DNA from: an uncultured Marivita sp.
GTDB lineage: Bacteria > Pseudomonadota > Alphaproteobacteria > Rhodobacterales > Rhodobacteraceae
DNA: 64,000 bases
Assembly: GCF_947488135.1 (NCBI RefSeq)
Contig: NZ_CANKYW010000005.1
Location: 248,001 to 312,000 of the forward strand
Direction of reading: 5' to 3'
Both the position numbers and the translations under genes were made by a program. Below the pieces are notes generated by a model that was not told where the DNA came from, made no database searches, and saw nothing but the letters and a program-made list of their open reading frames with translations. Positions 28,864 through 47,874 of this stretch are shown one piece after another (position 1 is the stretch's first letter; every line of letters begins with the position of its first letter).

Positions 28864-28867
28864 GCGC

Positions 28868-32114: not shown

Positions 32115-32118
32115 CGGC

Positions 32119-32388
32119 TCAGACTCCGAACCAGGAGGGGTAGCGCAGATGTCTGCGCGCCACCTCGGCGATCTGTGCGTCCCGCTTCGCGGCCCAGACC
32201 GCGAGAAGGTGGCCCACTAGCCAGAATGCGAGGCCAACGAGCCAGAGCCGCAAGCCGAGCCCGATGGCGGCCGCCAGGGTGCCATTGGCAATGGCGATGG
32301 TGCGCGGGGCACCGGCCAGCAGGATCGGATCGATCAGGGCGCGGTGCACCGGCGCGAAATAGCCGGGGATGTCGTTGGGGTTCTCCAT
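32119..32388 (-). CDS. trbD: TrbD/VirB3 membrane protein
   Basis: An 89-residue protein starting MENPNDIPGYFAPVHRALIDPILLAGAPRTIAIANGTL. One or two hydrophobic helices follow (LAAAIGLGLRLWLVGLAFWLVGHLLAVWAAKRD), then a YPSW-type C-terminus. This is the TrbD/VirB3 pattern. It shares its first base with the end of trbC and lies just before trbE, the normal order. Confidence 0.92.
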   Translation of the reverse strand: MENPNDIPGYFAPVHRALIDPILLAGAPRTIAIANGTLAAAIGLGLRLWLVGLAFWLVGHLLAVWAAKRDAQIAEVARRHLRYPSWFGV

Positions 32389-32714
32389 CAGATCAGCGCT
32401 CCGCCGCCGAAGGAGAAGAAGGAGAGAAAGAAGCTCGAGGCCGCGAAGGCGATGGACAGCCCGAAGACGATCTGCACCAGCCGCCGGAACCCGCCCGAAC
32501 TGTCGCCGAAGGCCAACGTCAGCCCGGTCACGATGATGATGATCACAGCAACGATCTTGGCGACCGGGCCTTCGATCGACTCGAGGATGGTTTGCAAGGG
32601 GGCTTCCCATGGCATGCCGGACCCGGCGGCGAGCGCCGGCACAGGCAGGGCGAAGACGACGAGGCCGAGCGCGGTTGCGCCAAGGGCTGTGCGAAATGAT
32701 GGCAGAAGGGTCAT
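32388..32714 (-). CDS. trbC: TrbC/VirB2 pilin
   Basis: A 108-residue pilin precursor with a signal sequence (ATALGLVVFALPVPALA) and two hydrophobic helices (IVAVIIIIVTGLTLAF and IVFGLSIAFAASSFFLSFFSF) separated by a short polar loop with DSSGGFRR. This is the usual layout of VirB2-type pilins that form the conjugative pilus. The start overlaps the trbB stop (ATGA). Confidence 0.93.
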   Translation of the reverse strand: MTLLPSFRTALGATALGLVVFALPVPALAAGSGMPWEAPLQTILESIEGPVAKIVAVIIIIVTGLTLAFGDSSGGFRRLVQIVFGLSIAFAASSFFLSFFSFGGGALI

Positions 32715-33694
32715 GGATGGCTTCCTTGTGTTGTTGGGAAAAGGGGGGTGAGGGCATAATCGCCCGAGGCGGTCAGGCCGGTGACACGCGCCAATTCAGA
32801 GAGGCGACGTTCGGCGCCCCGTCCGGACAGAACGGCGATCAGGTCGATGGTTTCTGCGATCAGCGCGCGCGGAACTGTCACCACCGCTTCTTGGATCAGC
32901 TGTTCGAGCCGCCGCAGCGCGCCGATGGCGGACCCGGCGTGGACCGTGCCGATCCCGCCCGGATGGCCGGTGCCCCAGGCCTTGAGCAGGTCGAGCGCTT
33001 CGGGGCCGCGCACCTCGCCAATGGGGATGCGGTCTGGGCGGAGCCGCAAAGATGCGCGCACGAGATCGGACAGGGTCGCGACCCCGTCCTTGGTGCGGAG
33101 AGCCACGAGGTTGGGGGTCAGGCATTGCAGCTCGCGCGTATCTTCGATCAGGACCACGCGGTCCGAGGTCTTGGCGATTTCCGCCAACAGCGCATTGGTG
33201 AGGGTCGTCTTGCCGGTTGAGGTCCCACCCGCGACAAGAATATTGGCCCGGCTGGTGACCCCTTCGCGCAACTGCGCAGCCGCATCTGAGGAGAGAATGC
33301 CCTTTGCGACATAGTCCTTGAGGGTAAACACCGCGACGGCGGGCTTGCGAATGGCGAAGGTGGGCGCGGAAACCACTGGCGGCAGCAAACCTTCGAAGCG
33401 CTCGCCCGTGTCTGGCAGTTCAGCAGAAACACGCGGGGCCGCGGGATGGACCTCCGCCCCGACGTGATGCGCGACAAGACGGATGATGCGCTCGCCATCG
33501 GCGGGAGACAGCACTGCGCCTGTGTCGTTCAGCCCATCGGCCAGACGGTCAACCCAAAGCCGCCCGTCGGGGTTCAGCATCACCTCGACGACGCCGGCAT
33601 CCTCGAGCCAGGCGGCGATGCTTGGGCCAAGGGCCGTGCGCAACATGCGTGCGCCGCGGGAAGACGTCTCGGTTTTGAAGGGCGTAACGGTCAT
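32711..33694 (-). CDS. trbB: TrbB/VirB11 ATPase
   Basis: A 327-residue secretion ATPase with Walker A GGTSTGKT (156-163), the Asp box [50 protein letters not shown] (His box) and Walker B within these motifs. It powers pilus assembly or substrate export together with TrbE and TraG. It is the first gene of the trb operon. The upstream neighbour is hsdM rather than copG/traG, so a defence gene block has been placed ahead of the trb genes. Confidence 0.96.
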
Positions 33695-33828
33695 GATTGG
33701 CCTCGCGATGGATCACGGGACCGATCAAGAAGACCGTTATTTGGGTACGCGCAACAGCTGCGAAAGCGGAGTAGTGTTATTGGTTAGAACGGCAGGGTTC
33801 CGGCGGAAGCAAGTCCCCAAACCGGGGC

Positions 33829-33862
33829 GTTCCGGCGCGACGATTTCCGCGACCACCGGAAC
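33829..33862 (-). terminator. Weak hairpin after hsdM
   Basis: The arms GTTCCGG (33829-33835) and CCGGAAC (33856-33862) are exact reverse complements with a 20-base loop, 12 bases past the hsdM stop. No T-run follows on the minus strand, so termination may be weak or absent. Confidence 0.3.
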
Positions 33863-33873
33863 GAATACGAATC

Positions 33874-35346
33874 CTATTCTACGCTCACGGCTTCAAAGCT
33901 CGCGAGGGCTGCTCGAAGGTTTTCCATAATCTCTTCTGCCAAAACGTCGGGCTCTGGGAGATTTTCGAGATCGGTCATTGACGCATCACGAAGCCAGAAA
34001 AGATCGAGGCTTGCCTTGTCACGTGCCAGTAGTTCTTCCCGGTCAAAGGCGCGCCAGCGCCCATCCGGGCTTTCTTCGCTCCAGGTCGGGCTGCGTTCAT
34101 ATCGATTTTCGGGTTTGTAGCACGAGACGAAATCTTCGAGGTGCACGTACGTCAGGGGCTTCTGCTTCAAGGTATGATGCACGTTGGTCCGGTAATCGTA
34201 GTACCAAACCCTGGAGGTCTGCGGATCAGGGCTGGCGGCACGGTTGTCGAAGAAGATCACGTTCGCCTTCACGCCCTGTGCATAGAAGATGCCTGTAGGC
34301 AGGCGAAGAATGGTATGGAGATCCGTCGTCTGGAGCAGTTTCCGCCGGATGGTCTCTCCCGCGCCGCCCTCGAACAGGACATTGTCGGGAACAACCACGG
34401 CGGCCCGCCCCGTTGTCTTCAGCATCGTCCGGATGTGCTGGACGAAGTTCAGCTGCTTGTTAGATGTGGTAGCCCAGAAATCCTGGCGATTGTAGGTCAG
34501 GTCGTCCGTCTCCTGCTCGCCTTCCGCATTGGTGAAGCTCATCGAGCTCTTTTTGCCGAAAGGCGGGTTCGCCAGAACGTAGTCGAAGGTCTCCGACGGC
34601 GGCGAGATCAGCGCGTCGGCCGGCGACACCAGCGTATCCCCGGTCATTTCGCCGATCCCGTGCAGGAACATGTTCATCAGGCAGAGGCGCCGGGTCCCGG
34701 CGACAATCTCGTTGCCGAAGAAGGTCGAATGCTTCAGGAGCGCCTTCTGATCCTTGTCGAGCCCATAGTTGTCCGGGTCCGTCAGGAAATCATGCGCGGC
34801 GAGGAAGAATCCGCCGGTCCCGCAGGCCGGGTCGGCGATGGTCTTGCCAGGCTCGGGGCGGACGCATTCGACCATTGCGCGGATCAGGGCACGCGGCGTG
34901 AAATACTGGCCGGCGCCCGACTTCGTATCCTCGGCGTTCCGCTCCAGCAGCCCTTCGTAGATGTCTCCTTTGACATCTGCCCCGAGCGTCACCCACTTCG
35001 TGCCGTCCACCATGTCGATCAAACGGAACAGCTTCGCCGGATCGGTGATCTTGTTTTGCGCCTTGGTGAAGATCTGGCCGAGCATGCCTTTCTGCTCGCC
35101 CAGCTTGCGCAACAGCATAACGTAGTGCGCTTCCAGTTCCGCTCCCCGCCGCGAGGTCAGACTGGTCCAGTCATACCCCGCGGGGATCCCTACATCGCGG
35201 CTATAGGGGGGCTTGGCGTATTCGCCCGCCATCTTAAGGAAGATAAGATAGGTGAGCTGCTCCAGGTAGTCGCCATACCCAACGCCGTCGTCGCGCAGCG
35301 TGGTGCAGAAGCTCCAGACCTTGGAGACAATTGGGGCCGTATTCAT
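33874..35346 (-). CDS. hsdM: Type I restriction-modification methyltransferase subunit
   Basis: A 490-residue N6-adenine methyltransferase with an HsdM N-terminal domain, SAM motif I DPACGTGGF (172-180) and catalytic motif NPPF (261-264). With HsdS it methylates the asymmetric recognition site, and with HsdR it makes the restriction complex. Here it is the last gene of the block, separated from hsdS by four other genes, which is unusual. It starts six bases after the DUF262 gene stop. Confidence 0.95.
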   Translation of the reverse strand: MNTAPIVSKVWSFCTTLRDDGVGYGDYLEQLTYLIFLKMAGEYAKPPYSRDVGIPAGYDWTSLTSRRGAELEAHYVMLLRKLGEQKGMLGQIFTKAQNKITDPAKLFRLIDMVDGTKWVTLGADVKGDIYEGLLERNAEDTKSGAGQYFTPRALIRAMVECVRPEPGKTIADPACGTGGFFLAAHDFLTDPDNYGLDKDQKALLKHSTFFGNEIVAGTRRLCLMNMFLHGIGEMTGDTLVSPADALISPPSETFDYVLANPPFGKKSSMSFTNAEGEQETDDLTYNRQDFWATTSNKQLNFVQHIRTMLKTTGRAAVVVPDNVLFEGGAGETIRRKLLQTTDLHTILRLPTGIFYAQGVKANVIFFDNRAASPDPQTSRVWYYDYRTNVHHTLKQKPLTYVHLEDFVSCYKPENRYERSPTWSEESPDGRWRAFDREELLARDKASLDLFWLRDASMTDLENLPEPDVLAEEIMENLRAALASFEAVSVE

Positions 35347-35352
35347 GGGTGA

Positions 35353-37245
35353 TTACTCCAAGTCTATCCAGGTTTGAGCCGCCATGGCAGCAAGACGTTC
35401 TCCACGCTCCCGGATTTCCGCCTCCGTCCATTGGTCTTTTTTGGCAAACCACTTGTTCAGAAACAGCCCGGTGTGTTCTTCGAACTTTTCCTTCTTTACG
35501 GTAAAGCCAGAATTTCCAGAGGAGATGTTCAGACCGCCTGTAAGCAAGGTCAAGTTTCCGAGGGAATGAACGAGGGTCCGGCGCGCCAATGCATCCGGTT
35601 CATCAGAATAGATTTCGTGGGTCTGCCCGTCCGGGAAAGGCCATTCATCGGTCCAAGTCTGAGGCAGAACGTGCTCGACCCAAAGGCCGGTGGGCTTCGT
35701 GGCGCTTTCTGCCATATGGGATCTGCTCGCAATTTCCAATTCCCACAGTATGTCAACCAAGCGAGTTCGAGGGGCGATGCTGTAGGCGTTTCCATCCAGG
35801 ATACCGCGCTGGAATTCGTCATTGCGCGGGAATCGGGTGCTGTCGCCAGACCTCTGGTTAAAGTAACCTCGAAACGCTTCCACCGAGGGTCCTTGGCGCA
35901 GGAATACCTCTGCAATGGACTGGAAAACCTTGTTCAAGTTCTTCGTTGTCAGCTCGCACATGGCCCGCCGCGCCAAGAAAGAATAGATCAACTGGGCAAG
36001 GTGCATCTTCTCTGGCGCAGGCAAATCCGATCCACCTATCTGCAAGGCAACGGGGAACACGGTTGTCACCTGCCATTCCGCCAGCTTTCGCCCAAGCCAG
36101 TAGAGCGCTGGGTCTTCCTCGGCCCTGCCTTCCAACGTTTCATACAGGGGCGCATACCGTTCCAGCAGTTTCAGTTCATGCTCAACATCGTCAAATCGAG
36201 GTTTGCCCTTCGGAACCGCGAAGGCCCGGTATTCGGCATAGAGTTCGCGCACCGAGATTTTCTTGCCCGTTTCGGCGGTCAGCACATGAGCGAGAAAGTG
36301 GTCCAAGCGCGGGCGACGTGGGCGCGCATTGGGCGCAGGCTCGCGCCACCACATGTCGTCCAGGGGGTCCCACAGCTTGGCATACAAGTCCTCTACGGGG
36401 GCGTCCTGTTTCTCCGCTCGGTGGAAGATGTTGTTCCGCACGAGGTCCATGGCGAGAAGGGGCTCACCCTTCGAGTTCAGCGTCTCAAAGATCACCTGTG
36501 CATCGTCGTTCTCACCGAGCGTGATAACCACCAGCTTCAGCCGATCAAGGACGGCACTGAGCAGGGCTTCAAGGCGTTCTTCCAACACCTCAAGCTCGAC
36601 TTCGTACTCACCGCCGGTCTTGCTCTCGCCTTCCAGATCGAGTTCGCTGTCTTCCTCCGGGCCATGGAAGGCAAACTCCTCAATCCAGGTGCAGAACAGG
36701 TGGTAAGCACGGAAAGCCGGAAAGCTGGTGTTCTTGGGCACGCGCTGACCATAGAACAGGCTGCGGTGCTTATGCGTTACGTCCTCGTAGGACATCTCGA
36801 TTATGTCGTGAAAGATGTCCCGGTCCGACGGTGTCGGTGTCAGTTTGAACCGTGTCAGAGGGTCCTTGTCTTTGTTCTTCGGCTCATTGAACAGATAGCC
36901 GTTGATGTGCCCCATGAGGTCTTCAAGGTCGTGGTCCCGCGCCACTTCGCGCAGTGCGGCCAGGAAGATTTGAAAGGTGGTCAGGCGTTGCTGGCCATCA
37001 ACCACCTGCACACGAGGCGTGCGGGCGATCTGAGAACCTTCCTCGACCGGAGACAGGATCAACGCGCCCATATAGTGTTCGAACTTGCTCTCACCGTCCA
37101 ACACCTCGGCGGCCTTGGCGGACACGTCGTCCCAGAACGGCTCTAGCCGGTTGTCGCCCCACTGATACTTCCGCTGATAGAGCGGAACCATGAAGCGGCG
37201 GGCTTCCTTCAAAACAACTTCTACGGGGTGATCGTCTGCGTCCAA
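35353..37245 (-). CDS. DUF262/DUF1524 (GmrSD-like) protein
   Basis: About 630 residues from a TTG start at 37245 that follows GGAGGAATAAGACC. A frame extension to an upstream start would cover the preceding gene and is rejected. The N-terminal DUF262 domain has the DGQQR motif (83-87) in VQVVDGQQRLTTFQIF, a ParB/Srx-like nucleotide-using domain. The C-terminal DUF1524 domain has VEHVLPQ (about 523-529) and LGNLTLLTGGLN...F..K, a His-Me/HNH nuclease. The fused form corresponds to type IV restriction enzymes of the GmrSD type, which cut modified phage DNA, and to BrxU-like proteins. It sits inside the type I restriction operon. Confidence 0.9.
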   Translation of the reverse strand: MDADDHPVEVVLKEARRFMVPLYQRKYQWGDNRLEPFWDDVSAKAAEVLDGESKFEHYMGALILSPVEEGSQIARTPRVQVVDGQQRLTTFQIFLAALREVARDHDLEDLMGHINGYLFNEPKNKDKDPLTRFKLTPTPSDRDIFHDIIEMSYEDVTHKHRSLFYGQRVPKNTSFPAFRAYHLFCTWIEEFAFHGPEEDSELDLEGESKTGGEYEVELEVLEERLEALLSAVLDRLKLVVITLGENDDAQVIFETLNSKGEPLLAMDLVRNNIFHRAEKQDAPVEDLYAKLWDPLDDMWWREPAPNARPRRPRLDHFLAHVLTAETGKKISVRELYAEYRAFAVPKGKPRFDDVEHELKLLERYAPLYETLEGRAEEDPALYWLGRKLAEWQVTTVFPVALQIGGSDLPAPEKMHLAQLIYSFLARRAMCELTTKNLNKVFQSIAEVFLRQGPSVEAFRGYFNQRSGDSTRFPRNDEFQRGILDGNAYSIAPRTRLVDILWELEIASRSHMAESATKPTGLWVEHVLPQTWTDEWPFPDGQTHEIYSDEPDALARRTLVHSLGNLTLLTGGLNISSGNSGFTVKKEKFEEHTGLFLNKWFAKKDQWTEAEIRERGERLAAMAAQTWIDLE

Positions 37246-37249
37246 GGTC

Positions 37250-38242
37250 TTATTCCTCCGGTGGGCCGTCCCAAACACGGGCGGTTTCGGCGTCGAAAAA
37301 TTTGTAGGAGACTTTGCTGCCTTCCAATTTGCTGAAACGAGACAATTTGGCGTCGGCTTCGCGGATCTTGGCTGGATCGGGCCTATAGATGCCGAACCAT
37401 ACGCAATCGATATTCTCGTTTCCGAAAATCGCATGGTAGATGTGCGCGTCGTTGTTGTCCGCACTGTGCCCGAACACAAAAATATGTCCCGTTTGCTCGC
37501 GCAACTTTCCGAAGCAATGACGCAAATACGGGCTGGCGAAAATCTTCCTCGCCTTTGCTACTGAGCTGCCTTCTGCGACATAAAGAGGAAGGCGCTTTTC
37601 CTCAACAATTGTCCGGGAAATCGTGGCAATCACACCTTCCTTAGTGTGCTGAGCCTTGTAGACTTCATCCTGACGATTTTGGAAGAGATGCAGTCCGCCG
37701 TGCAGGTTGAAGATGTGGCAATATGCATCCTGCTTGAAAGGTCCTCGGAAACGACCGCTTGGGCTAACCTTTCCTAGCCCGAAGCCGTCGTTCAAACGCT
37801 CCTTATGCAGGTTCACCCAATACAGTAGGAGGTCATAGTTCAGCGTGAAGATTGTCCCGAAGTGGCCTATGAAAGCATCCGCGCTTTCGTATTTGAATGT
37901 AAGTTCATCGCGGTGTGCGGGGTGAGTGGCGTTGACTGCCTTTACGAGGGCTTCCCGAACCGCCTGTGCGTCCCTCTCAAGCTCATCCGCATGATCTTGG
38001 TTGCCATACGCCTGCTCTACAACAATGGCGTCTTCCAAGGCGCGAATAACGGCCTCAAAGTCCACGGTATCCAAGGCATCGAACAGCGCCTTGATCGGGC
38101 TGCCTTCTGCAAGGTCCGCCGCTTCACGAAGGTTCTGGTAGCTGAAGTAATCAATCGAAAAGCCATTGCCGATAAGGAGCGCCCTATTCCCACCCTCGGT
38201 TGCTTCAATCGCATCGTGGAAACTTACGACTTCATCGGGCAT
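37250..38242 (-). CDS. DUF4917 (SIR2-like fold) protein
   Basis: A 330-residue protein with motifs in the order expected of SIR2-like NAD-binding domains: LLIGNGFS (22-29), FTLNYD (132-137), NLHGGLHL (His near 181) and FVFGHSADNND (255-265). This is the DUF4917 family. SIR2-like domains in defence systems hydrolyse NAD+ on phage sensing; whether this one has that activity is not established. It is preceded by, and overlaps by 11 bases, a 45-codon gene, and is followed five bases later by the GmrSD-like gene. It probably acts with them. Confidence 0.75.
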   Translation of the reverse strand: MPDEVVSFHDAIEATEGGNRALLIGNGFSIDYFSYQNLREAADLAEGSPIKALFDALDTVDFEAVIRALEDAIVVEQAYGNQDHADELERDAQAVREALVKAVNATHPAHRDELTFKYESADAFIGHFGTIFTLNYDLLLYWVNLHKERLNDGFGLGKVSPSGRFRGPFKQDAYCHIFNLHGGLHLFQNRQDEVYKAQHTKEGVIATISRTIVEEKRLPLYVAEGSSVAKARKIFASPYLRHCFGKLREQTGHIFVFGHSADNNDAHIYHAIFGNENIDCVWFGIYRPDPAKIREADAKLSRFSKLEGSKVSYKFFDAETARVWDGPPEE

Positions 38243-38369
38243 CGGTTTTTTCCCGTAGTTTCGCCGTAGGAGCCTTGGCGCGGATGTCTTTGATTTGGTT
38301 CAGCGGGGATAACGGACCCAGTTGGCCGCCGATGCTTCGCTGCATCTGGAGCAATTCGACGTCGCTCAT
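38232..38369 (-). CDS. 45-residue coupled small protein
   Basis: Starts with ATG at 38369, overlapping the stop of the upstream HEPN/Abi-like gene in ATGA, with AGTTGGGAAG ahead as a possible ribosome-binding site. The sequence begins MSDVELLQMQRSIGGQLGPL and continues with a Lys/Arg-rich stretch (IKDIRAKAPTAKLREKTDAR) to TGA. It overlaps the DUF4917 gene by 11 bases. The coupling on both sides argues that it is translated. It has no Cys and no membrane segment. The function is unknown; it could be an inhibitor, adaptor or antitoxin-like partner of its neighbours. Confidence 0.65.
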   Translation of the reverse strand: MSDVELLQMQRSIGGQLGPLSPLNQIKDIRAKAPTAKLREKTDAR

Positions 38370-39217
38370 CTTCCCAACTCTTTCTCCAGCCGCTTCAGCA
38401 TCCACCGAGCTGTGACCACGACCAATTGCAGACGGAACATGGCGTCGTGTTGCGTGGAGATTCGAGGATGCGCACCGTCCGGATGAAGAAGCTTTGCCAG
38501 ACCGGGCAGGAAGGTCTGTTTGTTGCCATCCCCGAATTCATGCTTGTCACGCGATAGAAACCCTTGCTCGGCTAGCAATTGTCGTTTCTGCAATCCACTG
38601 GCTCGATTAGCCGCCTCTGCGGGGTATAGCTTGTCTGCGATAGCGTCGGTCAGCGCTTCAAGGAACGTGCGGCACTGGCTATTTGCAGCTTCCCAGTCTG
38701 CTTGAGTGATGTTTTCCTTGGCGCTGGCCAAATGGCGCTGCGCGACTGCGAAGCCATTTCGAGCCAACATGATATCGACTTCACTCCCAGTTTCCGGAAG
38801 CGCCACGAAGTTCGGCAAAGCGGTGGTGAAACCGGTAATGGTCACTTCGTCGTTGAACATGCCCTGTTTCACGTCTTTGAGAAGTGCGAAGCCATCCAGG
38901 TTCAAATAGCGTTCCAACTTGTTCCACGGTTGTGCCTCGCCGTTTCTTCCGTCCAAGCGGATCGCCAGATCAATCAAGAGTTCGGCGAGGGTCTTTTTTC
39001 CGTAGTCTGTGTGGACCACAAAGGTTGGGTTCTGGACCGCGAAGGTCTTGAGATTCAGAAGCGTCTTGGCGATTGAGCCGGCGGCCGACACATATTCCGA
39101 CAGGCCGTACTCCAGCAGAAGGCTTTCCAGATCAGCGTTCGTTTTTATCGCCCCTTCCAGGATGCCGCAGGCAGAAACGACAGCCCCCCGACCAATTGAG
39201 GGATTGGATTTGGTCAT
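38366..39217 (-). CDS. Abi-like protein with possible HEPN C-terminal domain
   Basis: A 283-residue protein. The N-terminal half (SACGILEGAIKTNADLESLLLEYGL..., IDLAIRLDGRNGEAQPW) is not recognised. The C-terminal half (VAQRHLASAKENITQADWEAANSQCRTFLEALTDAIADKLYP... HPDGAHPRISTQHDAMFRLQLVVVTARWMLKRL) resembles abortive-infection C-terminal (Abi_C) or HEPN helical domains. RISTQH fits an R-x4-H RNase-like motif, although its position relative to GAHP is what the family would need to confirm. The start overlaps the hsdS stop (ATGA), so it is translationally tied to the restriction operon. Confidence 0.6.
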   Translation of the reverse strand: MTKSNPSIGRGAVVSACGILEGAIKTNADLESLLLEYGLSEYVSAAGSIAKTLLNLKTFAVQNPTFVVHTDYGKKTLAELLIDLAIRLDGRNGEAQPWNKLERYLNLDGFALLKDVKQGMFNDEVTITGFTTALPNFVALPETGSEVDIMLARNGFAVAQRHLASAKENITQADWEAANSQCRTFLEALTDAIADKLYPAEAANRASGLQKRQLLAEQGFLSRDKHEFGDGNKQTFLPGLAKLLHPDGAHPRISTQHDAMFRLQLVVVTARWMLKRLEKELGR

Positions 39218-40800
39218 GCTGAAACCCTCCGCCGTTTGGTCGTCGTCGCCTTGGCGCGGTCGGCCTTGATCCGATCCAGCAGGTTGGCGGCGGGTTCGTC
39301 GTTGGGGTTCTGGGGGACGAGGTGGCCGGCGAAGGCTTTTTTCAGGATGGATTGGCGCAGGGCGTCGGCGCGGGTGAGGGCGGCGTCGATCTCGGCGTCT
39401 AGCGCGTCGGCGGCTTCGAGTTTTTCGTCGAGGATGCGAACGATTTCGGTTTGTTCGTGAGGGGAACAGACTGGGACAGGTAACCCTTCGATCTTGGAGA
39501 TACTCAGGGTGTGGAGACCAGAGGTCGAGCTTGCCTGTGCTTCGATCAGCTTTCGGCCAACCGGCGACATCATGAAATAAAGCGCGAACCGCGATGACAG
39601 GATACCATCTGCACTGAAACGGATCAGATGGTTTTGGTGGGTCATGTTCGGGATGCTGCCATCCCAGATGGCGACGCGCCCGATTTGCTCTATCGACCCG
39701 TTGCCCTCCACAAACAGCAGGTCTCCGGTGACAAGGCTAGTCTTCAACAGCTCTTCTTCCGTGACGCCGATCTCCATGATCTCGTCGAGTTCGAGCCGAT
39801 TTGAATAGACGTTGGCGACGCGCAAGTATTTGGCCTTGAGAGGAAAGGCATTGCGTTTCTGGTTCTTTGTCAGGCCACCGGTCGTTTGCCCGAGATCGGA
39901 CATCGCAGGAATGAGCCATTCCGCTGGAACGGGAACCGTCACCCCCGATGGAATCTTGGCCGAGCCAATGAAATCTCTGGGCCGCTTCGGCTTCGCGGGT
40001 TTCTTGCCCTTCTCGCCGTCGGCGCGCCACTGGGCGAGCGCGTCTTGCCAGGCGTCGAGGGCGGCTTTGTAGCGCGCGTCGCGTTCGGCTTGGATGCGGG
40101 CGAGGAGGGTTTCGGGGGCTTCCAGCTTGTCGGCGTTCTGCGCGCGCCAGTCGGCGGTGAGGCGGCCTTCGAAGGCGGATTTCAGCAGGGACTGGCGGTA
40201 GAGGCCGAGGGTGGTGCGCGCCGTTTGCAGGCTCTCGACACCCTTGTCGATCTCGTCGAACATCGCCTCGATCTTCTCCACGATCCGGCGTTGTTCGTTG
40301 AGGGGCGGGATCGGAATTGGAACTGTCGCAAGGTTGCCCCGCGAAATGCGCTTACGCGTCGACCCTGACTGCAGGGCAGAAATTTTGCCGCGAACTTCCG
40401 GTGAGTTGATGGCCCGCATGAGGTAGCGCGGCTCGATTGCGGCGCTGCCCAACCTGATGGCGCAGACATCAACTACGGTTACGAAGCGTTCTTCACCATC
40501 AAGCGGAAAGATACAGCACCGGCCCAATGGATCAGGCATCCGAGCAACTAGTAGATCACCTTTCTTGAGAAAGGTGCAGTTCAGTTCATCGGCCTTCTCG
40601 CGCGTCAGAAAGCGCGATGACTTATTGACAAAATGACTATCAGCAATGTCTGCCAACTGAATTAGGCGAACCGAACCATTCGGGTCTTGATCCTTGCTTT
40701 CGACCCAGTCGCCATCGGTGAAGATGCCGTCATGCGCGATTAAGTCAGGGGCGCCTTGGCCCATCCGCGCGGAAAATCCGTCATGCCGAAAGCGCCTCAT
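39214..40800 (-). CDS. hsdS: Type I restriction specificity subunit
   Basis: A 528-residue HsdS with two target-recognition domains separated by conserved helical regions: PLNEQRRIVEKIEAMFDEIDKGVESLQTA in the middle and HEQTEIVRILDEKLEAADALDAEIDAAL near the C-terminus. It dictates the bipartite DNA sequence recognised by HsdM and HsdR. It overlaps the hsdR end by 20 bases and the next gene by four. The gap to hsdM of four unrelated genes is the notable feature. Confidence 0.94.
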   Translation of the reverse strand: MRRFRHDGFSARMGQGAPDLIAHDGIFTDGDWVESKDQDPNGSVRLIQLADIADSHFVNKSSRFLTREKADELNCTFLKKGDLLVARMPDPLGRCCIFPLDGEERFVTVVDVCAIRLGSAAIEPRYLMRAINSPEVRGKISALQSGSTRKRISRGNLATVPIPIPPLNEQRRIVEKIEAMFDEIDKGVESLQTARTTLGLYRQSLLKSAFEGRLTADWRAQNADKLEAPETLLARIQAERDARYKAALDAWQDALAQWRADGEKGKKPAKPKRPRDFIGSAKIPSGVTVPVPAEWLIPAMSDLGQTTGGLTKNQKRNAFPLKAKYLRVANVYSNRLELDEIMEIGVTEEELLKTSLVTGDLLFVEGNGSIEQIGRVAIWDGSIPNMTHQNHLIRFSADGILSSRFALYFMMSPVGRKLIEAQASSTSGLHTLSISKIEGLPVPVCSPHEQTEIVRILDEKLEAADALDAEIDAALTRADALRQSILKKAFAGHLVPQNPNDEPAANLLDRIKADRAKATTTKRRRVSA

Positions 40801-43531
40801 TCATCTCGGTCATGACCTCGTCCATCCCATCCCCAAAGAGCGCATACATCTGCCCCATGCCGCCCTTGGCGTCGAAGGGGGCCATTTCCAGATCGTCGCG
40901 CTCGATGGTGAAGGAGGTGGCAAGGTGGTCGCGGATCATGCGCAGCCACTCCATCTGCTCCTCGGTGAACTTTTCCCCCGCGCCAGAGTGGCGGTTCAGC
41001 ACCCAGTTCTGGAAGTTGCGCCGCACCCGCTCGGAATGGCGGGTCAGCGTGTCGTCGAGCCCGGTCACCCTGCGGATCAGCGCCACCAGTGCGGTCAGGT
41101 CACTGGCGGGGTTGCTGCCCTTGTAGTCATCGAGATGCGCATAGGCGCGCCAGACGGTGAGCGGAGCGAGGCGCGGGCGATCCTCGGTCAGTTTCTTAAG
41201 CACATCCTTGATCATCGTGTAGGTAATTTCGGCGCGGCGGGCGGGGGTGTTGAAGTAGATCGATAGCGCCTCGATCTCGTCCCGGTTCTCGGTCAGATAT
41301 TCCTCGAACTCCTGTGCGATCTGCTTGGCGTTCTCGGCCACATCGCCCGCCCATTCAGCGCGCAGCAGCGTGTCGAGGTTGTCATGGTCGATGGTCTGTT
41401 CGTTGTCGCGGCGGATCGTGTCCATCAGGTTGATGAGCGGGCCGGTGAAGACGTTGGCGGCCTGCCTGATCCGCTCCTCGCGCGCGGCCTGGATGGCCGT
41501 GTCATCGGGCTCGGGGTTCCCGGCGGCCTTGGCATCCGCCTCGACCTTGTCGGGGTCGATGGCATCGAAGAGGTCGCGCACGATGGCGGTGAGGGATGTC
41601 TCGGACTCGGCCGCGATCTTCTCCTGATCCTCGGCCCCGAGCTTGTTGTCCAGCCGTGAAAGGCGGGCGGCGAGCGAGCTGACGGTTTCCTCGGACCGGT
41701 CGCCCATCATCAGCCCCATGGCGAGGTCCTTGAAGGGGATCGAGGGCTTGGTGTCGAGTGGCTGGCTGGCGGTCTTGAGCGATTTGGTGACGCCGACGGC
41801 ATCGACGATGACGTAATGGGTCTTGGCCTGGGCAGAGGGGGAGACCTTCTTCAGGTCGTCGGGTTTGAGGACCCGGGTGCCGCGGCCCTTCATCTGCTCG
41901 AAGTAGTTCTTCGACTTCACGTCGCGCATGAAGATCAGGCATTCGAGCGGTTTCACGTCCGTGCCAGTGGCGATCATGTCCACGGTCACGGCGATGCGCG
42001 GGTAGTAATCGTTGCGGAAGGCCGAGAGTGAGGATTTCGGGTTCTTCGCCCCGTTGGTGATCTTGCGGCAGAAATCGTTGCCCTCGCCGAACTCCTGCCG
42101 GACGGTCTGGATGATGTCGTCGGCGTGGCTGTCGGTCTTGGCGAAGATCAGGGTTTTCGGCAGTTCCTTGCGGCCGGGGAAGATCTCGGGCCACTTGTCG
42201 TGGAATGTGCGGATGACTGTGCGGATCTGGTCCGGGTTGACGACGGAGCGGTCAAGTTGGGTGGCGGCGTAGGCCTGTTCGTCGTCCTGCGTTTCCCATC
42301 GACGCGCGCGGGTCTCGCGTTCGCGTTTCTCGACCAGTTGCTCTGCTTTGAGGGTTTCGCCACCCTGGGTGATCTCGGTTTCGATCAGGTAGATTTCGTT
42401 GCCGACGTTGACCTTGTCGGCGACAGCCTTCTCGTGGGTGTATTCGCTGACGACGTTCTTTTGGAAGAACCCGTAAGTGCGATTGTCGGGTGTGGCTGTC
42501 AGGCCGATGAGGTAGGCGTCGAAATACTCGATGACCTGGCGCCAGAGATTGTAGATCGAGCGGTGGCATTCATCGATGACGACCACGTCGAAGTATTCCG
42601 GCGGCAGCTTGGCGTTGTAGACGACCGGCAGAGGTTCCTTGCGGCGCCAATTCTGCTCCGCCGGGTTTTCGTCTTCGGCACCCTCGTTCAGTTCCTCGCC
42701 TTTGAGCGTGGCGTACATGCGCTGGATCGTCGAGATGACGACCTGGCTGTCGTTCGCGATTGAGGGCGATGTGAGGCGCTGGACGTTGTAGAGTTCGGTG
42801 AACTTGCGGTTGTCGTCGTTCGGGATAAAGGCCATGAACTCCTGTTCGGCCTGCTCGCCAAGGTTTTTGGTGTCGACGAGGAACAGGATGCGGCGCGCGC
42901 CAGCGTGTTTCAGCAGGCGGTAGACTTGCGTGATCGCGGTGAAGGTCTTGCCCGACCCGGTCGCCATCTGGACAAGTGCGCGGGGCTTGTCGGATTTGAG
43001 CGAGGTCTCAAGGTTCGTGATCGCCTTGATCTGGCAGTCGCGCAAGCCGTCCGGGTTGAGACTTGGTAGCGCCGCAATGCCTGCACGCAGGCTCATTGGC
43101 GCTTGTGCCCAGGATTTCAGGGTTTCGGGGCGGTGAAAGGTGAAGACCTCGCGCGAACGAGGGTTAGGATCGCGGGCATTTGTGAAGCGGGTGACCTGAC
43201 CTGTACTCTCGTAGAGGAATGGGAGCGGTTCGGCGTTGCTGACCCATTTCAGCTTGGCGTTGGCGTAGCCCTCGGATTGCTCCTCGACCGAGGTCAGGCG
43301 GACACCCCAGTTGTCGGGCTTGGCTTCGACCACGCCGACCGCGTGCCTGTCGGCGAAGAGGACGTAGTCGGCGGGTCCGATGTCTGTCTGGTACTCGCGG
43401 ACGGCCACGCCGAGCCCGGCGTTGAAATCGAGCGCGTCCTTGTCCTGGACATGCCAACCGGACGCCCGCAGGCGTTCATCGATCCGGTCCCGGGCGAGCT
43501 GCTCGGGGGTTTGGTTGACATCAGGTGACAC
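40781..43531 (-). CDS. hsdR: Type I restriction endonuclease subunit
   Basis: A 916-residue HsdR. The N-terminal nuclease domain has a D...ExK-type site (D55, VVEAK with E69 and K71). The SF2 helicase motor follows, with MATGSGKTFTAI (Walker A) and VIDECHRSIYN (DEAD/DECH box), QMKGRGTRVLKP (motif VI region) and a C-terminal EcoEI-type domain. The start is GTG at 43531. It is the first gene of the defence block, with a reasonable promoter 18-46 bases upstream. Confidence 0.95.
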   Translation of the reverse strand: MSPDVNQTPEQLARDRIDERLRASGWHVQDKDALDFNAGLGVAVREYQTDIGPADYVLFADRHAVGVVEAKPDNWGVRLTSVEEQSEGYANAKLKWVSNAEPLPFLYESTGQVTRFTNARDPNPRSREVFTFHRPETLKSWAQAPMSLRAGIAALPSLNPDGLRDCQIKAITNLETSLKSDKPRALVQMATGSGKTFTAITQVYRLLKHAGARRILFLVDTKNLGEQAEQEFMAFIPNDDNRKFTELYNVQRLTSPSIANDSQVVISTIQRMYATLKGEELNEGAEDENPAEQNWRRKEPLPVVYNAKLPPEYFDVVVIDECHRSIYNLWRQVIEYFDAYLIGLTATPDNRTYGFFQKNVVSEYTHEKAVADKVNVGNEIYLIETEITQGGETLKAEQLVEKRERETRARRWETQDDEQAYAATQLDRSVVNPDQIRTVIRTFHDKWPEIFPGRKELPKTLIFAKTDSHADDIIQTVRQEFGEGNDFCRKITNGAKNPKSSLSAFRNDYYPRIAVTVDMIATGTDVKPLECLIFMRDVKSKNYFEQMKGRGTRVLKPDDLKKVSPSAQAKTHYVIVDAVGVTKSLKTASQPLDTKPSIPFKDLAMGLMMGDRSEETVSSLAARLSRLDNKLGAEDQEKIAAESETSLTAIVRDLFDAIDPDKVEADAKAAGNPEPDDTAIQAAREERIRQAANVFTGPLINLMDTIRRDNEQTIDHDNLDTLLRAEWAGDVAENAKQIAQEFEEYLTENRDEIEALSIYFNTPARRAEITYTMIKDVLKKLTEDRPRLAPLTVWRAYAHLDDYKGSNPASDLTALVALIRRVTGLDDTLTRHSERVRRNFQNWVLNRHSGAGEKFTEEQMEWLRMIRDHLATSFTIERDDLEMAPFDAKGGMGQMYALFGDGMDEVMTEMNEALSA

Positions 43532-43548
43532 GCATAAGGCCTGAAGTT

Positions 43549-43577
43549 GCTATATTTTTTTCAATCATGGCGTTCAA
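43549..43577 (-). promoter_or_regulatory. Candidate sigma-70-type promoter of hsdR block
   Basis: On the minus strand, TTGAAC (43577-43572) and TATAGC (43554-43549) are separated by exactly 17 bases, with an A-rich spacer (GAAAAAAA). The -10 element ends about 18 bases before the GTG start of hsdR. This is the only good match in the 126-base gap, and it would let the restriction block be expressed separately from traG. Confidence 0.5.
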
Positions 43578-43657
43578 GGAGCGAAAAGGCAATTGGCGAG
43601 CGTACGGGTTGGGCTTCTACTTCCAGTTGTTGGATCGATATTCGCCGGAGCAAGGAT

Positions 43658-44095
43658 TTATTGTGTACCTTTGGTTGGGTCTGTCTGTCCTGCTGGTAGA
43701 TCTTGAACGAGTTCTTTGGTGAGAGTTGATCCCTTCGCCAACCGACGTGAGAGCGTCTGAACGAAGCCGCCATATCGCTCTTTGCCCTTCGCCTTGGCCG
43801 CCGCGTAGGTGTCATCGGGGAGGGGGGGCGTCGTCGTCAGCCAGAAGCGGACGAACAGCGCCAGCGCCTCCGTCGTGATCTCCTGATCGCGTTCCAGCCG
43901 TTCGAGCGACCGGTTCAGGCGGTCCAGCCTTCGGACGATCGCGGCCTCGCTCTGTTCGGCGCTGTCGGGGGATAGGAATGACGCCAGCGCCGCCTCGATG
44001 ACTTGGGTTTTGGGGACGCGCCGCCGAGCGGCCAGCGCGTCGATTTCATCGAAGAGGGCTGCGTCGACATAGGCGGTGATCTTGGCTTTCTTCAT
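43658..44095 (-). CDS. CopG/RHH-type protein upstream of the defence block
   Basis: A 145-residue protein beginning MKKAKITAYVDAALFDEIDALAARRRVPKTQVIEAALASFL, a ribbon-helix-helix DNA-binding domain. A helical region with Arg/Glu heptads (AAIVRRLDRLNRSLERLERDQEITTEALALFVRFWLTT) follows. Proteins of this size are regularly encoded directly after traG in this ICE family and are annotated as CopG-family regulators. It starts nine bases after the traG stop. It may act as a relaxosome accessory protein or regulator. Confidence 0.85.
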   Translation of the reverse strand: MKKAKITAYVDAALFDEIDALAARRRVPKTQVIEAALASFLSPDSAEQSEAAIVRRLDRLNRSLERLERDQEITTEALALFVRFWLTTTPPLPDDTYAAAKAKGKERYGGFVQTLSRRLAKGSTLTKELVQDLPAGQTDPTKGTQ

Positions 44096-44104
44096 GTCGT
44101 CACC

Positions 44105-46099
44105 TCACAGGTCGATGCCATCATCCGGATCGAGGGCCGCTTGACGCGCGACGGCGCGGAAGCGGGTCTGTATGGCGCGGGCGCGTTGGGCCTCGTCATC
44201 GGGTTCGTCTTCGAGGGCGGCGAATTCCTCGCGCGGGAACGGCAACTCAGGCGCCACATCCTCATGCTCGGGGATCTCAGGTTCTCTTCGGATGCCGCCA
44301 TCTGCATCGTCAGCGGGCTTGTTCGTATCAGCTTCCTGAGCTTGCATGATCGGCTGAAGACTGCTCCAATCGTCGGTTCCCGCCGTGCTGATTGCTGCAG
44401 ATGCTTCTACGCTAGGCGGCTTTTGGATTCTCGCCGTCAGTTGCGCATCGCGGAAGTACCGCACTTTTTGTGCCCGGATCGGTGCCGCACCCGACACGAG
44501 GATGATTTCGTCATCGGGCGGCAACTGCATGATCTCACCGGGGGTAAGCAAGGCCCGGGCGGTTTCCTGGCGTGAGACCATCAGGTGGCCGAGCCAGGGT
44601 GACAGGCGGTGCCCGGCATAGTTTTTCATCGCGCGCAGTTCGGTCGTGGTGCCGAGGGCATCGGACAGGCGCTTGGCCGTGCGCTCGTCATTGGTCGCGA
44701 AAGCGACGCGGACATGGCAGTTGTCCAGGATGGCATTGTTCTGGCCATAGGCCTTTTCGATCTGGTTCAGCGATTGGGCGATCAGGAAGGCCTTGAGGCC
44801 ATAGCCCGCCATGAAGGCGAGCTGGGACTCGAAGAAGTCGAGACGGCCGAGGGCGGGGAACTCGTCGAGCATGAACAGCAAACGGTGCTTGCGGTTGGTG
44901 TTGTGCAGCTCCTCAGTCAGACGGCGGCCGATCTGGTTCAGGATCAGCCGGACCAGCGGTTTGGTGCGGGAAATGTCCGAAGGCGGCACCACGAGGTAAA
45001 GGGTGAGCGGCCGCGCATCTGAGACCAGATCGTTGATCCGCCAGTCGCAGCGTTGGGTCACGGCGGCGATCACGGGGTCGCGGTAGAGGCTGAGAAAGGA
45101 CATGGCCGTGGACAGGACGCCGGAGCGTTCGTTCTCCGACTTGTTCAGCAGCTCGCGCGCGGCTTGAGCGACAACAGGATGCGGGCGATCTCCGAGATGG
45201 GCGGTCCGCATCATGGCAGTCAGAGTGGCGGCGATGGCACGCCGCGGATCGGACAGGAAGGCGGCGACGCCTGCCAAGGTCTTGTCCTTCTCGGCATAGA
45301 GGACATGCAAGATTGCGCCGACCAGAAGGGAATGGCTGGTCTTCTCCCAATGGTTCCGCCGCTCGAGCTGGCCTTCTGGATCGACCAGGATGTCGGCGAT
45401 GTTCTGGACGTCACGGACTTCGCGCTCGCCGCGTCGGACCTCGAGCAGCGGATTGTAGGCGGCGCTGGCCCCGTTGGTCGGATCGAAGAGCAGGACGCGC
45501 CCGAACCGCGCCCGCCATCCAGACGTCAGCTGCCAGTTCTCGCCCTTGATGTCGTGGACAATCGCGGAGCCGGGCCAGGTCAGCAGGCTTGGGATCACCA
45601 GGCCGACGCCCTTGCCGGAGCGGGTGGGCGCGAAGCAAAGCACGTGTTCCGAACCATCATGCCGGAGGTAGCGCTTGTCGAGACGGCCCAGCACGACCCC
45701 GTCGTCTGCGAACAGCCCGGCGGCGGTGATATCCTTGGGGCTTGCCCATCTGGCAGAGCCATAGGTTGTCACGTCGCTCGCCTCGCGCGCCCGCAAGACG
45801 GACAGCAAGATGGCGACGGCAATCGCGGCGATCCCACCTGCGCCGGCGATTGCAGCTCCTTCCATAAAGACGCGGGGCGCGTAAGCGTCGTACCAGTACC
45901 ACCAGGTGAAGACCTGCCACGGGCGATAGATCGGCAGGCCGAAGAGGGCGGTGAGAGGCGCGCCAAGCTGGGGTTGGAATCCCAGACGAAACGCGACCCA
46001 TTGTGTCGCCGCCCAGACAAAGAGCAGCGCCACGATGCTGACGATGATGATCTGGCCCCAGAGGATCTTGGTGGCCGATGACGTGTCCTGACGGCTCAT
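44105..46099 (-). CDS. traG: TraG/VirD4 type IV coupling protein
   Basis: A 664-residue coupling protein with two N-terminal membrane helices, Walker A PTRSGKG (158-164) in LCFAPTRSGKGVGLVIPSLL, Walker B LLFMLDEFPALGRLD, and the SLNQIEKAYG and ATNDERTAKRLSDALG segments. It links the relaxase-DNA complex to the trb channel. It starts 17 bases after the relaxase stop. Confidence 0.96.
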   Translation of the reverse strand: MSRQDTSSATKILWGQIIIVSIVALLFVWAATQWVAFRLGFQPQLGAPLTALFGLPIYRPWQVFTWWYWYDAYAPRVFMEGAAIAGAGGIAAIAVAILLSVLRAREASDVTTYGSARWASPKDITAAGLFADDGVVLGRLDKRYLRHDGSEHVLCFAPTRSGKGVGLVIPSLLTWPGSAIVHDIKGENWQLTSGWRARFGRVLLFDPTNGASAAYNPLLEVRRGEREVRDVQNIADILVDPEGQLERRNHWEKTSHSLLVGAILHVLYAEKDKTLAGVAAFLSDPRRAIAATLTAMMRTAHLGDRPHPVVAQAARELLNKSENERSGVLSTAMSFLSLYRDPVIAAVTQRCDWRINDLVSDARPLTLYLVVPPSDISRTKPLVRLILNQIGRRLTEELHNTNRKHRLLFMLDEFPALGRLDFFESQLAFMAGYGLKAFLIAQSLNQIEKAYGQNNAILDNCHVRVAFATNDERTAKRLSDALGTTTELRAMKNYAGHRLSPWLGHLMVSRQETARALLTPGEIMQLPPDDEIILVSGAAPIRAQKVRYFRDAQLTARIQKPPSVEASAAISTAGTDDWSSLQPIMQAQEADTNKPADDADGGIRREPEIPEHEDVAPELPFPREEFAALEDEPDDEAQRARAIQTRFRAVARQAALDPDDGIDL

Positions 46100-46116: not shown

Positions 46117-47874
46117 TCAGAGGCTCAGCCCGCGCTTGCGCCCGAGGCCCCAGTCGATCCCGCCGCCCGGCGTCATCGTGCCCGTAACAGTCTGGCCGAG
46201 ATGGCGTTCGAGTTGCGGGGTCCAGGGGACGAGCGAAAATCCGAGGCCATCATCGATCATGGCGAAGCGGCCCGAGGCGAGATCGAAGCGTCGGCGGAAT
46301 GTCCCTGCGACGGGTTCGCCCTCGGTCGGCTTGTAGTAGGGGAGGCCGGTTTGTGTGCTGAGGTCTTGAGCGATGGCGTCCAGTTCGCGGTTGCGCAGGG
46401 TGGCCAGCAGATCGCGGGCAAAGGTGACCCGCTGCCCTTGCCGGCGGGCGAGGCCTTCGGCGACAAGGTGATTCGAGCGGCGCTCCAAGGCCTGGCGAAC
46501 ATCTGCGCCAAATCCGGCGCCACTCAGCGGCGCGCGGTCCCGGGCAAGATGCAGGCGGTCGAGCCAAGTGGCGCCATCCGCCTCGACCTGGGCGGCCAGC
46601 GACAGATCGGAACGACCGACAAGAGACAGTTGCGGTGTCCCGTCCGTCTTCCCTGTCCAGAGCCGGGTTTCGACGATGCCACCTTGCGGCGTGTCGCCGG
46701 TCGCATCGAGATTCCGGAAGCGCAGGTGATGTACGCGACCGTCAACACCGTCGATGATCGCGTAGCCGGTCCCGGCGTGGTCATCATGAAAGCCGCGTTC
46801 CACGAGCCGCCCGAGGATCGGGGCGGTGGGCGTGCCTTCGATGGCGAAATCACCCGCTGCGCGCTCCCGGTCGGCGCCCATGGCTCGGTGCATCCGTTTG
46901 ATGATGTCGCCGCGCATCCCGAGCTCGCGCAGAGTGTCTTCGGCAGTCGGTTTCAACTCCCAGACGGCAGGGGCTATTTGTTCGGCCAGCCCGAGCCTCT
47001 CCAGTGTCTGGGCACGCCCTATCATCAAGCGGCGCAGCTCCGGATCGCGGGGTTCCGGCGTTCCGCGCCGCAGGTCGGCGATGCCGGCATGATCGTCCGC
47101 CAGGGATCGTAGGCCCCGGTCCAGATCAGTCCAGCGTTCCGCCGTGACCTGCGTTTCGAGCGCTTGGGAAATCTCCCGCGCGCTGCGGGGGCCCAGTTCC
47201 AGTTGTACGAGGTCTTCTGCGCGCGCTCGAAGCCCCCGGCTGATGTAGTCACGCGAGATGACGAGATCGCGGCCATCGTCGGCCTTTCCACGCACCAAAA
47301 TGTGGATATGCGGATTATCGGTGTTCCAGTGATCGACGGCGACCCAGTCGAGCGTGGTGCCGAGATCCCGTTCGGCACGGGCCATCAAATCCCGGGTGAA
47401 GGCGCGCAGATCTTCGAGATCGGCCGCGTCCTCCGGCGAGATGATGAACCGGAAATGATGCCGGTCCTCTTCGCAGCGCGCCGCAAATCCGCCCCGGTCG
47501 AGATCATCGCGTTCACACCCGAACAAGTCGGCGTCGCGCCCGTCCTGACCGACGCCATCGCGCTGCAGGTAGCCGAGATGCTTGGCCATGGGCGCGGAGC
47601 GAAAGCGCTTGCCCTGGTGGCGCACGACGCGGGCCTTCACGACGACGCGCCGGGAGGTGCGAGTCAGGCCTTTGGCCGTTCGGGCAAACCGTCCGCGCCC
47701 GAAAGAGGTGTTGCCGGAACGCATGCTGCCCGCGCCGATGCGATAGCCGGTATGTCCGGATTTCCGCGCAGCGCGCATCACCTCGTTGACGAAGCGTGTC
47801 GATTGCTTAGAGGTCCTGCCGCCGTCGCGGATACGTCCGGGGCGGATACGCAGGTCGTCGTCGCGCCGGGTCAT
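46117..47874 (-). CDS. Relaxase with DUF3363 domain (RlxS-like)
   Basis: A 585-residue relaxase of the VirD2/RlxS type. The three-His motif is VDHWNTDNPHIHILVRG (H182, H189, H191), preceded by HHFRFIISPEDA, and a C-terminal DUF3363 region follows. It nicks oriT and stays attached to the transferred strand. The start at 47874 (MTRRDDDLRIRPG) follows GGAAGCGAG. The 247-base gap upstream of it is the natural place to look for oriT. Confidence 0.92.
   Translation of the reverse strand: MTRRDDDLRIRPGRIRDGGRTSKQSTRFVNEVMRAARKSGHTGYRIGAGSMRSGNTSFGRGRFARTAKGLTRTSRRVVVKARVVRHQGKRFRSAPMAKHLGYLQRDGVGQDGRDADLFGCERDDLDRGGFAARCEEDRHHFRFIISPEDAADLEDLRAFTRDLMARAERDLGTTLDWVAVDHWNTDNPHIHILVRGKADDGRDLVISRDYISRGLRARAEDLVQLELGPRSAREISQALETQVTAERWTDLDRGLRSLADDHAGIADLRRGTPEPRDPELRRLMIGRAQTLERLGLAEQIAPAVWELKPTAEDTLRELGMRGDIIKRMHRAMGADRERAAGDFAIEGTPTAPILGRLVERGFHDDHAGTGYAIIDGVDGRVHHLRFRNLDATGDTPQGGIVETRLWTGKTDGTPQLSLVGRSDLSLAAQVEADGATWLDRLHLARDRAPLSGAGFGADVRQALERRSNHLVAEGLARRQGQRVTFARDLLATLRNRELDAIAQDLSTQTGLPYYKPTEGEPVAGTFRRRFDLASGRFAMIDDGLGFSLVPWTPQLERHLGQTVTGTMTPGGGIDWGLGRKRGLSL

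Follow-up and report, generated by a model that had tools for sequence, protein, structure and literature searches.

Why should a type I restriction operon carry four additional open reading frames (ORFs) between hsdS and hsdM? The question is raised by a stretch of 64,000 nucleotides, referred to here as the window, from an uncultured Marivita sp. of the Rhodobacteraceae (contig NZ_CANKYW010000005.1, positions 248,001 to 312,000). An operon on its minus strand, spanning 43531–33874, has the order hsdR, hsdS, P0003, a 45-codon ORF, a DUF4917 gene, gmrSD and hsdM. The answer proposed here is that this is probably an ordinary type I system with an accessory slot, in which independent defences have been accreted stepwise as parallel modules, rather than a guard device. 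The features of the operon, with lengths in amino acids (aa) and E-values in parentheses, are as follows.

40781–43531, minus strand: hsdR, 916 aa, GTG start, EcoEI-like C-terminus; Pfam ResIII (9.7e-41) and EcoEI_R_C (7.8e-39)
39214–40800, minus strand: hsdS, 528 aa, putative start; Pfam Methylase_S in two stretches (4.2e-16), PADLOC Specificity_I (4.7e-101)
38366–39217, minus strand: P0003, 283 aa, an orphan family, defence-associated by its neighbours
38232–38369, minus strand: 45-codon ORF, probable relic of an hsdS 3' tail
37250–38242, minus strand: DUF4917 gene (PADLOC candidate PDC-S21), 330 aa; Pfam PF16263 (1.3e-52), PDC-S21 (4.8e-91)
35353–37245, minus strand: single-chain gmrSD, a type IV, modification-dependent restriction enzyme by its domains, 630 aa; Pfam GmrSD_N (1.5e-34) and GmrSD_C (1.7e-26)
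33874–35346, minus strand: hsdM, predicted type I adenine methyltransferase, 490 aa; Pfam N6_Mtase (4.4e-71) and HsdM_N (6.7e-10), PADLOC MTase_I (3.3e-193)

HsdR, HsdS and HsdM, each with the expected Pfam domains, are thereby encoded in one operon, a predicted type I restriction–modification system. The gene order and coordinates given in a preliminary description of this DNA were correct, and Pfam confirmed its assignments of HsdR, HsdS, HsdM, DUF4917 and GmrSD. The junctions it listed also held, namely overlaps of 20 bases between hsdR and hsdS (given the putative hsdS start codon), 4 between hsdS and P0003, 4 between P0003 and the 45-codon ORF and 11 between the latter and DUF4917, and a gap of 6 bases between gmrSD and hsdM; only the gap between DUF4917 and gmrSD is 4 bases instead of 5. 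gmrSD starts with TTG at 37245, a start backed by an ATG at the same place in Brevirhabdus pacifica (locus L011). ATGSGKT, DECH and a D..ExK stretch, which we take to be HsdR motifs, were read by eye in HsdR. The G+C content was found to be 53–57% in the cargo genes versus 59–62% in hsdR, hsdS and hsdM. A sigma-70 scan of 33500–44200 gave no site against a chance expectation of 2.9, although the organism may use other promoters, and terminator-like sites were at chance level (12 seen, 11.7 expected). The whole operon is presumably read as a single transcript.

A cargo slot between hsdS and hsdM

How general is this insertion? From a scan of genome contigs with HsdM, the best 80 of at least 570 matches (HsdM at least 76% alike) were taken as the census sample. 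An hsdS relative was found upstream of hsdM in 67 of the 80. The 13 loci without an hsdS match were left out of the slot count: in ten of them the sequence ends within about 3.5 kb upstream of hsdM, and L063, L077 and L079 have 10 kb upstream. In L047, one of those left out, the gene immediately ahead of hsdM is a gmrSD relative (61%). The junction is free of cargo (at most 10 bases) in 13 of the 67 loci, with an hsdS/hsdM overlap of exactly 4 bases in 10 of those, and holds extra DNA in the other 54. In 50 of the 54 filled slots there were forward ORFs no shorter than 120 aa, which gave 82 proteins in 44 clusters, 14 of which are present in at least two loci. The slot ORFs were called mechanically by a caller that favoured forward ORFs, with which bias the shared operon orientation of 82 of the 88 called ORFs of at least 120 aa is to be read; the hsdS end of L045 is ambiguous between two determinations. 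Judged from these comparisons, this type I family has a cargo slot at its hsdS–hsdM junction, with dozens of different modules found at a single site of a widespread type I system.

The nature of the cargo was assessed with Pfam on 30 proteins (cluster representatives and larger single ones; a few matches lie below the curated cut-off). The families found include Fic, AlbA_2/Schlafen, GIY-YIG/DUF4357, GmrSD_N, AAA_21, AAA with subtilase, SIR2_2 with HerA, PIN, AbiEii, SMEK, zeta toxin, HEPN_LA2681, Macro, RhuM, Bro-N, PLD and a YhgA-like transposase family, among others, and six of the 30 proteins gave no Pfam match at E 0.01. PADLOC, applied to nine of these 30, left one unmatched and otherwise named Septu PtuA (4.2e-196) and PtuB (3.3e-80), IetS, SIR2, an Argonaute-associated restriction endonuclease (REase), PDC-S04, PDC-S14 and a HEC-05-like GmrSD_N protein. 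The cargo named by Pfam or PADLOC belongs mostly to defence or toxin families, a statement that carries no claim of enrichment, as no background frequency was computed.

The commonest cargo cluster is an orphan family of about 150 aa, present in eight loci (L018, L020, L021, L028, L035, L067, L083 and L088). In L083 its gene precedes a GmrSD_N gene, and in Tropicibacter (L174:11711–12160) a copy immediately precedes a second gmrSD, in a neighbourhood where no hsd relative was detected. The slot at L043:4555–9995 holds an Argonaute-associated REase (SMEK), a 473-aa protein without a Pfam match, a zeta-like gene and an AlbA-like gene. In all three loci with Septu PtuAB, HsdS is extended at its C-terminus by about 80 aa (L011:5364–5636, L014:6690–6959 and L016:7293–7562); the extension was matched by blast in none of 161 other loci and gave neither a Pfam nor a plasmid match.

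Exchange of cargo between related operons

Brevirhabdus pacifica (L011) carries the same element as the window, 91% alike over 24325–37244 and 40777–44638. Between hsdS and gmrSD, however, the place of P0003, the relic and DUF4917 is taken by PtuA and PtuB relatives, which share 73% and 44% identity with the PADLOC-named proteins of L014. The two elements match again from 37244, base two of the gmrSD start codon, and the hsdS recognition regions also differ. Because Brevirhabdus keeps gmrSD with Septu cargo instead, the block of P0003, relic and DUF4917 is separable from gmrSD. One conjugative element with two alternative cargos amounts to a natural experiment.

Smaller cargos were found as well. 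Paracoccus sanguinis has the same chassis (HsdR 96%, HsdS 94%, HsdM 96%) with DUF4917 (66%) alone in the slot. DUF4917 is the sole slot gene in genome G271 too, and gmrSD is the sole slot gene in Gemmobacter and G767. Since this position holds very different defence genes in related operons, the extra genes are best read as exchangeable modules and not as parts of one machine.

The full set was found in one of the 80 HsdM loci besides the window, L027 of Tropicibacter alexandrii (G925 is the same contig and not a second case). The two loci share HsdR at 82%, HsdS at 45%, P0003 at 80%, the 45-codon ORF at 64%, DUF4917 at 91%, GmrSD at 95% and HsdM at 85%. Cargo does move between type I loci, a point that the preliminary description had raised. 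It had also seen in the four genes a composite system, whose members should recur together and not always as independent passengers. They do recur as a block in L027, narrowly, with one recurrence among 80 loci, and are not always independent passengers; each real part, however, also occurs apart.

The 45-codon ORF

What is the 45-codon ORF between P0003 and DUF4917? DUF4917 follows immediately on the end of hsdS in Paracoccus sanguinis and G271. The match of the window's DUF4917 to these loci continues for 41 and 52 bases upstream of the start codon, into the hsdS ends of L012 and L127, and on the side of the window into the 45-codon ORF. Compared with 69 HsdS tails, the 45-aa product reached best scores of 63 (window) and 51 (L027), which none of 1000 shuffles (maxima 56 and 50) and none of 320 control windows (maximum 43) equalled. 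Changes between the window and L027 were distributed over the three codon positions as 11, 7 and 12 in the ORF, versus 41, 32 and 159 in P0003; the ORF counts have P = 0.001 under the third-position share of P0003 and P = 0.28 under equal shares. On these two genomes and 30 changes, the ORF is probably a relic of an hsdS tail left behind at a cargo exchange. Its description as a gene was not confirmed, given the resemblance to HsdS tails and the lack of codon-position bias. Further relics were sought in other filled slots with a hidden Markov model (HMM) of hsdS tails, whose match in L045 turned out to be a canonical hsdS tail inside a long ORF.

The three cargo proteins

The GmrSD protein combines DUF262 and DUF1524 domains in a single chain, the combination expected of its family together with QR, DGQQR, FxxxN and His-Me residues. 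The motifs YQRK, DGQQR, FETLN, VEHVLPQ and LGNLTLL were read by eye, the list of DUF262 motifs being taken from PMC11411939. The GmrSD-like gene of the preliminary description was upheld, with both domains found by Pfam and all named motifs present, and the protein would be predicted to cleave DNA with modified cytosine. At E 1e-100, gmrSD was detected in 6 of 345 genomes of the family, at seven places, four of them in the slot (G819 taken as Brevirhabdus from its position) and three elsewhere. At L177:9037–10957, a gmrSD relative lies in two overlapping pieces and is possibly a broken gene.

The PF16263 match covers residues 22–324 of the DUF4917 protein, the profile fitting over the whole protein. 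SIR2-like NADases are characterized by a GNG loop, a catalytic Asn (NYD) and a His (HG), and the GNG, NYD and HG residues are kept in 13 of 13 DUF4917 members. Profile similarity to SIR2 is weak to moderate: PADLOC Aga_SIR2 matched at 5.2e-5, and hhalign to two SIR2 cargo proteins gave 39% probability and E 3e-4. A PDB search gave chance-level matches only. DUF4917 is likely a SIR2-like NAD-consuming effector. The identity of the gene as DUF4917 was confirmed, and its SIR2-like reading is moderately supported.

Among 292 genomes of the order to which the window belongs (inferred to be Rhodobacterales), five had DUF4917 at E 1e-10, its own included. Three of the five genes are in the slot, one is beside BrxL and PglZ (BREX) and one is about 3 kb from an HsdM-like gene (30% alike). 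Class-wide, at E 1e-20, it was found in 3 of 337 genomes including its own, with no hsd relative in the stretch examined around the G504 gene. None was found in viral contigs. Plasmid matches comprised 34 records, of which seven were inspected: L160 and L161 have it beside type I genes, L158, L162, L163 and L164 have no adjacent type I genes, and L159 has it about 3 kb from a cytosine methyltransferase. In the BREX case (G345; L126:9177–16763), DUF4917, 64% to that of the window, lies directly downstream of brxL and pglZ. In L164, a Vibrio europaeus plasmid (2286–8491), DUF4917 stands in an apparent integron cassette array with DUF3265 genes between, a setting that suggests a self-sufficient single-gene module.

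P0003 had been described as Abi/HEPN-like and a possible RNase, a label that could not be confirmed. The protein gave no match in Pfam, PADLOC or NCBIfam and none to a solved structure, and a Pfam search of 21 family members returned no HEPN or Abi family, the other matches being at chance level (best E 0.044). The alignment of these 21 members has the invariant residues N179, R183, H245, H250, P251, F261 and R262, in the patterns N-x3-R and H245-x2-G-x-H250-P. The HEPN RNase motif is Rx4-6H, and no conserved Arg lies 4–6 residues before either invariant His. Against seven Abi_C members, hhalign gave E 0.27 with a nine-member alignment of P0003 and E 0.015 with all 21, and the C-terminal half gave E 0.0039 and 0.00088; the 21-member alignments cover 120–139 columns in that half at a probability of 3–9%, which is not significant. 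The C-terminal and global runs were made after the full-length run, and nine control clusters, run at full length only, did less well against Abi_C (E 0.16–0.69), as did P0003 against the same clusters (E 0.11–0.71). This amounts to a weak profile resemblance to Abi_C.

Relatives of P0003 were found in 5 of 394 genomes of the family and 2 of 385 of the class, its own counted in both; among the genomes searched, only the window and Tropicibacter have it in the slot. Three relatives were found in viral contigs. Of 33 plasmid records, 13 were inspected, 12 of them annotated, and no type I gene is listed in those 12 stretches (flanks of 4 or 8 kb, with incomplete gene tables). The plasmid neighbours include AbiEii, an S8 peptidase with an ATPase, a kinase and a 7-cyano-7-deazaguanine synthase; those in whole genomes include an MmeI-type enzyme (L140) and an ABC-3C protein with Hypoth_ymh (L142). 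By position, the orphan families P0003 and the about 150-aa family of eight loci become defence candidates. In L140:9105–12772, the P0003-like gene overlaps the end of the MmeI-type enzyme gene and is followed by an AlbA-like gene, and L141 looks alike. The P0003-like genes near the 7-cyano-7-deazaguanine synthase gene are on rhizobial plasmids (L152:1202–4735 and L153:1121–4669).

Defence genes embedded in type I operons

Embedded defences, that is, defence genes inside multi-gene defence clusters, were reportedly described by Payne et al. in 2024 (bioRxiv 10.1101/2024.01.29.577857, cited in PMC11411939), and PADLOC PDC names such as PDC-S21 presumably come from that line of work. The top-ranked results of literature searches held no paper on the function of DUF4917 (one contains the word) and no title or abstract opening naming the present gene set. 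The embedding of defence genes in type I operons is itself already published, and the present operon is a variant of that arrangement.

Type I systems were proposed to carry HEPN and Sir2 toxins restrained by the immunity system (Makarova et al., 2012; PMC3506569), and type I genes were reported as the commonest defence neighbours of GmrSD (Machnicka et al., 2015; PMC4619093). A close likeness is to TgvAB of Vibrio cholerae VPI-2, GmrSD-like genes with DUF262/DUF1524 chemistry likewise embedded in a type I operon, between VC1769-68 and VC1765 by gene number (PMC11411939). tgvAB protects without HsdR restriction activity, and its complementarity with the type I system against modified-cytosine DNA was suggested by analogy with BrxU (PMC11411939). 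TgvAB, however, needs two proteins, TgvA (DUF262) and TgvB (DUF262-DUF1524), whereas the present operon has one DUF262 protein together with DUF4917 and P0003, and so is not TgvAB.

The RRDM island of Escherichia coli, like tgvAB a tested case, has defence genes, DarTG2, embedded in a type I operon, but its cargo lies between hsdS and hsdR and has a dedicated repressor, RptR (PMC12255303). RloF of Campylobacter jejuni is a DUF262 gene within a type I locus, as here, but it sits between hsdS and hsdR with other accompanying genes (cited in PMC4619093). PrrC, coupled to the type Ic system PrrI in a known guard link, is also an extra effector gene co-localized with an hsdMSR cluster (PMC3506569). 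Unlike in that case, no PrrC/RloC anticodon nuclease or ABC NTPase domain was found among the Pfam, PADLOC and NCBIfam matches of P0003–P0006.

Parallel modules or a guard device?

The reading preferred here is that the slot would hold three functional-looking defence genes (P0003, DUF4917 and gmrSD) and one dead fragment, the 45-codon relic. Starting from hsdS–DUF4917–hsdM, gmrSD would have been inserted ahead of hsdM; at the opposite side P0003 would have come in with a new hsdS end, and the former hsdS tail would have stayed in front of DUF4917. Expressed from one transcript, the cargo genes and the type I system would act in parallel: the type I enzyme would cut unmethylated DNA, and GmrSD would cleave phage DNA that bears modified cytosines and evades type I enzymes. 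DUF4917, as a SIR2-like and probably NAD-depleting protein, and P0003 would be separate effectors of the abortive-infection type, each with its own trigger. What the sequence shows is the gene arrangement, the slot with its diverse cargo, the exchange of modules, the likeness between relic and hsdS tails, and the motifs retained in GmrSD (catalytic ones) and in DUF4917; a common transcript, the sequence of acquisitions, the biochemical functions and the lack of a guard link are inferred.

Several observations weigh against this reading. The full set stands in a second chassis, L027, and DUF4917 and gmrSD at least may be kept together. Between the window and L027, synonymous divergence (dS) is saturated for P0003, 0.28 for DUF4917, 0.32 for gmrSD, 3.0 for hsdM and 0.82 for hsdR, and nucleotide identity in 150-base steps is 69–81% in P0003, 82–99% in DUF4917, 89–99% in gmrSD and 62–82% in hsdM; the sharing of DUF4917–gmrSD is more recent than that of its neighbours. 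None of the five DUF4917 genes of the order is far from a type I or BREX gene: each is inside such a system, adjacent to one or at most about 3 kb away. The test of the relic was chosen after the DNA alignment had suggested it, and an HMM built on 45 HsdS tails brought up nothing convincing in the other filled slots, did not list the relic of the window and scored that of L027 at 4.3 bits. tgvAB alone was 10–100 fold less protective than the full cluster against several phages (PMC11411939). Finally, the HsdS extension found with Septu hints at physical coupling between some cargo and the type I enzyme.

A more general model would make the junction a docking slot, at which defence cassettes are exchanged by recombination anchored at the conserved hsdS 3' end and at the start of the next gene, leaving hsdS-tail scars. 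Some cassettes would arrive with an HsdS tail of their own that fits them, through which the specificity subunit would serve the embedded effector as its DNA sensor. Such a model is conceivable but doubtful.

The preliminary description proposed a link to failure of the type I enzyme, for which no positive sign was found. In this guard or back-up device, the enzyme would hold P0003, DUF4917 and GmrSD inactive and release them once it is blocked or evaded by a phage, in the way that PrrI controls PrrC. The tight junctions of the single operon, the recurrence of the set in L027, and both the PrrC precedent and the proposed HEPN and Sir2 toxins held in check in type I systems (PMC3506569) are in keeping with it. 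Every real part, however, was also found without hsd genes or with other hosts, and the cargo differs between chassis with 94–97% identical HsdR and HsdM. TgvAB, an analogue from this kind of slot that has been tested, is independent of HsdR restriction activity, although weaker on its own than the full cluster, as noted above (PMC11411939). A guard device is accordingly held to be unlikely.

Pure hitch-hiking, in which the hsdS–hsdM junction merely tolerates recombination and the cargo genes have no functional tie to the type I system or among themselves, would fit the 44 cargo clusters in one slot and the exact module boundary of the Brevirhabdus swap. It sits less well with the predominance of defence and toxin families among the named cargo (for which there is no background frequency) and with the common orientation of the slot ORFs, which would fit selected co-expression, caller bias aside; on balance it seems improbable. 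That P0003 and the 45-codon ORF form a toxin–antitoxin pair within the operon is very improbable, since, despite the 4-base overlap, the small basic product and an ORF open in two genomes, the 45-aa product resembles HsdS tails and retains the hsdS::DUF4917 junction, its ORF changes without codon-position bias, and no common small partner is annotated beside the P0003 relatives inspected on plasmids, although ORFs that short may escape annotation.

The surrounding conjugative element

The operon is enclosed by a conjugation cluster, with a relaxase, a coupling protein and a ribbon-helix-helix gene upstream and T2SSE and TrbE-like ATPases downstream.

46117–47907, minus strand: relaxase of the DUF3363 type, upstream; Pfam DUF3363 (3.7e-89) and Relaxase (1.2e-4, below its cut-off)
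44105–46099, minus strand: coupling protein of the TraG/VirD4 type, upstream; Pfam T4SS-DNA_transf (1.2e-104)
43658–44095, minus strand: ribbon-helix-helix gene, upstream; Pfam RHH_1 (1.2e-5)
32711–33694, minus strand: secretion ATPase, downstream; Pfam T2SSE (2.6e-34)
29634–32114, minus strand: TrbE/VirB4-type ATPase, downstream; Pfam P-loop_TraG (1.1e-13) and CagE_TrbE_VirB (2e-5)

The secretion ATPase at 32711–33694 is, by its position, presumably TrbB.

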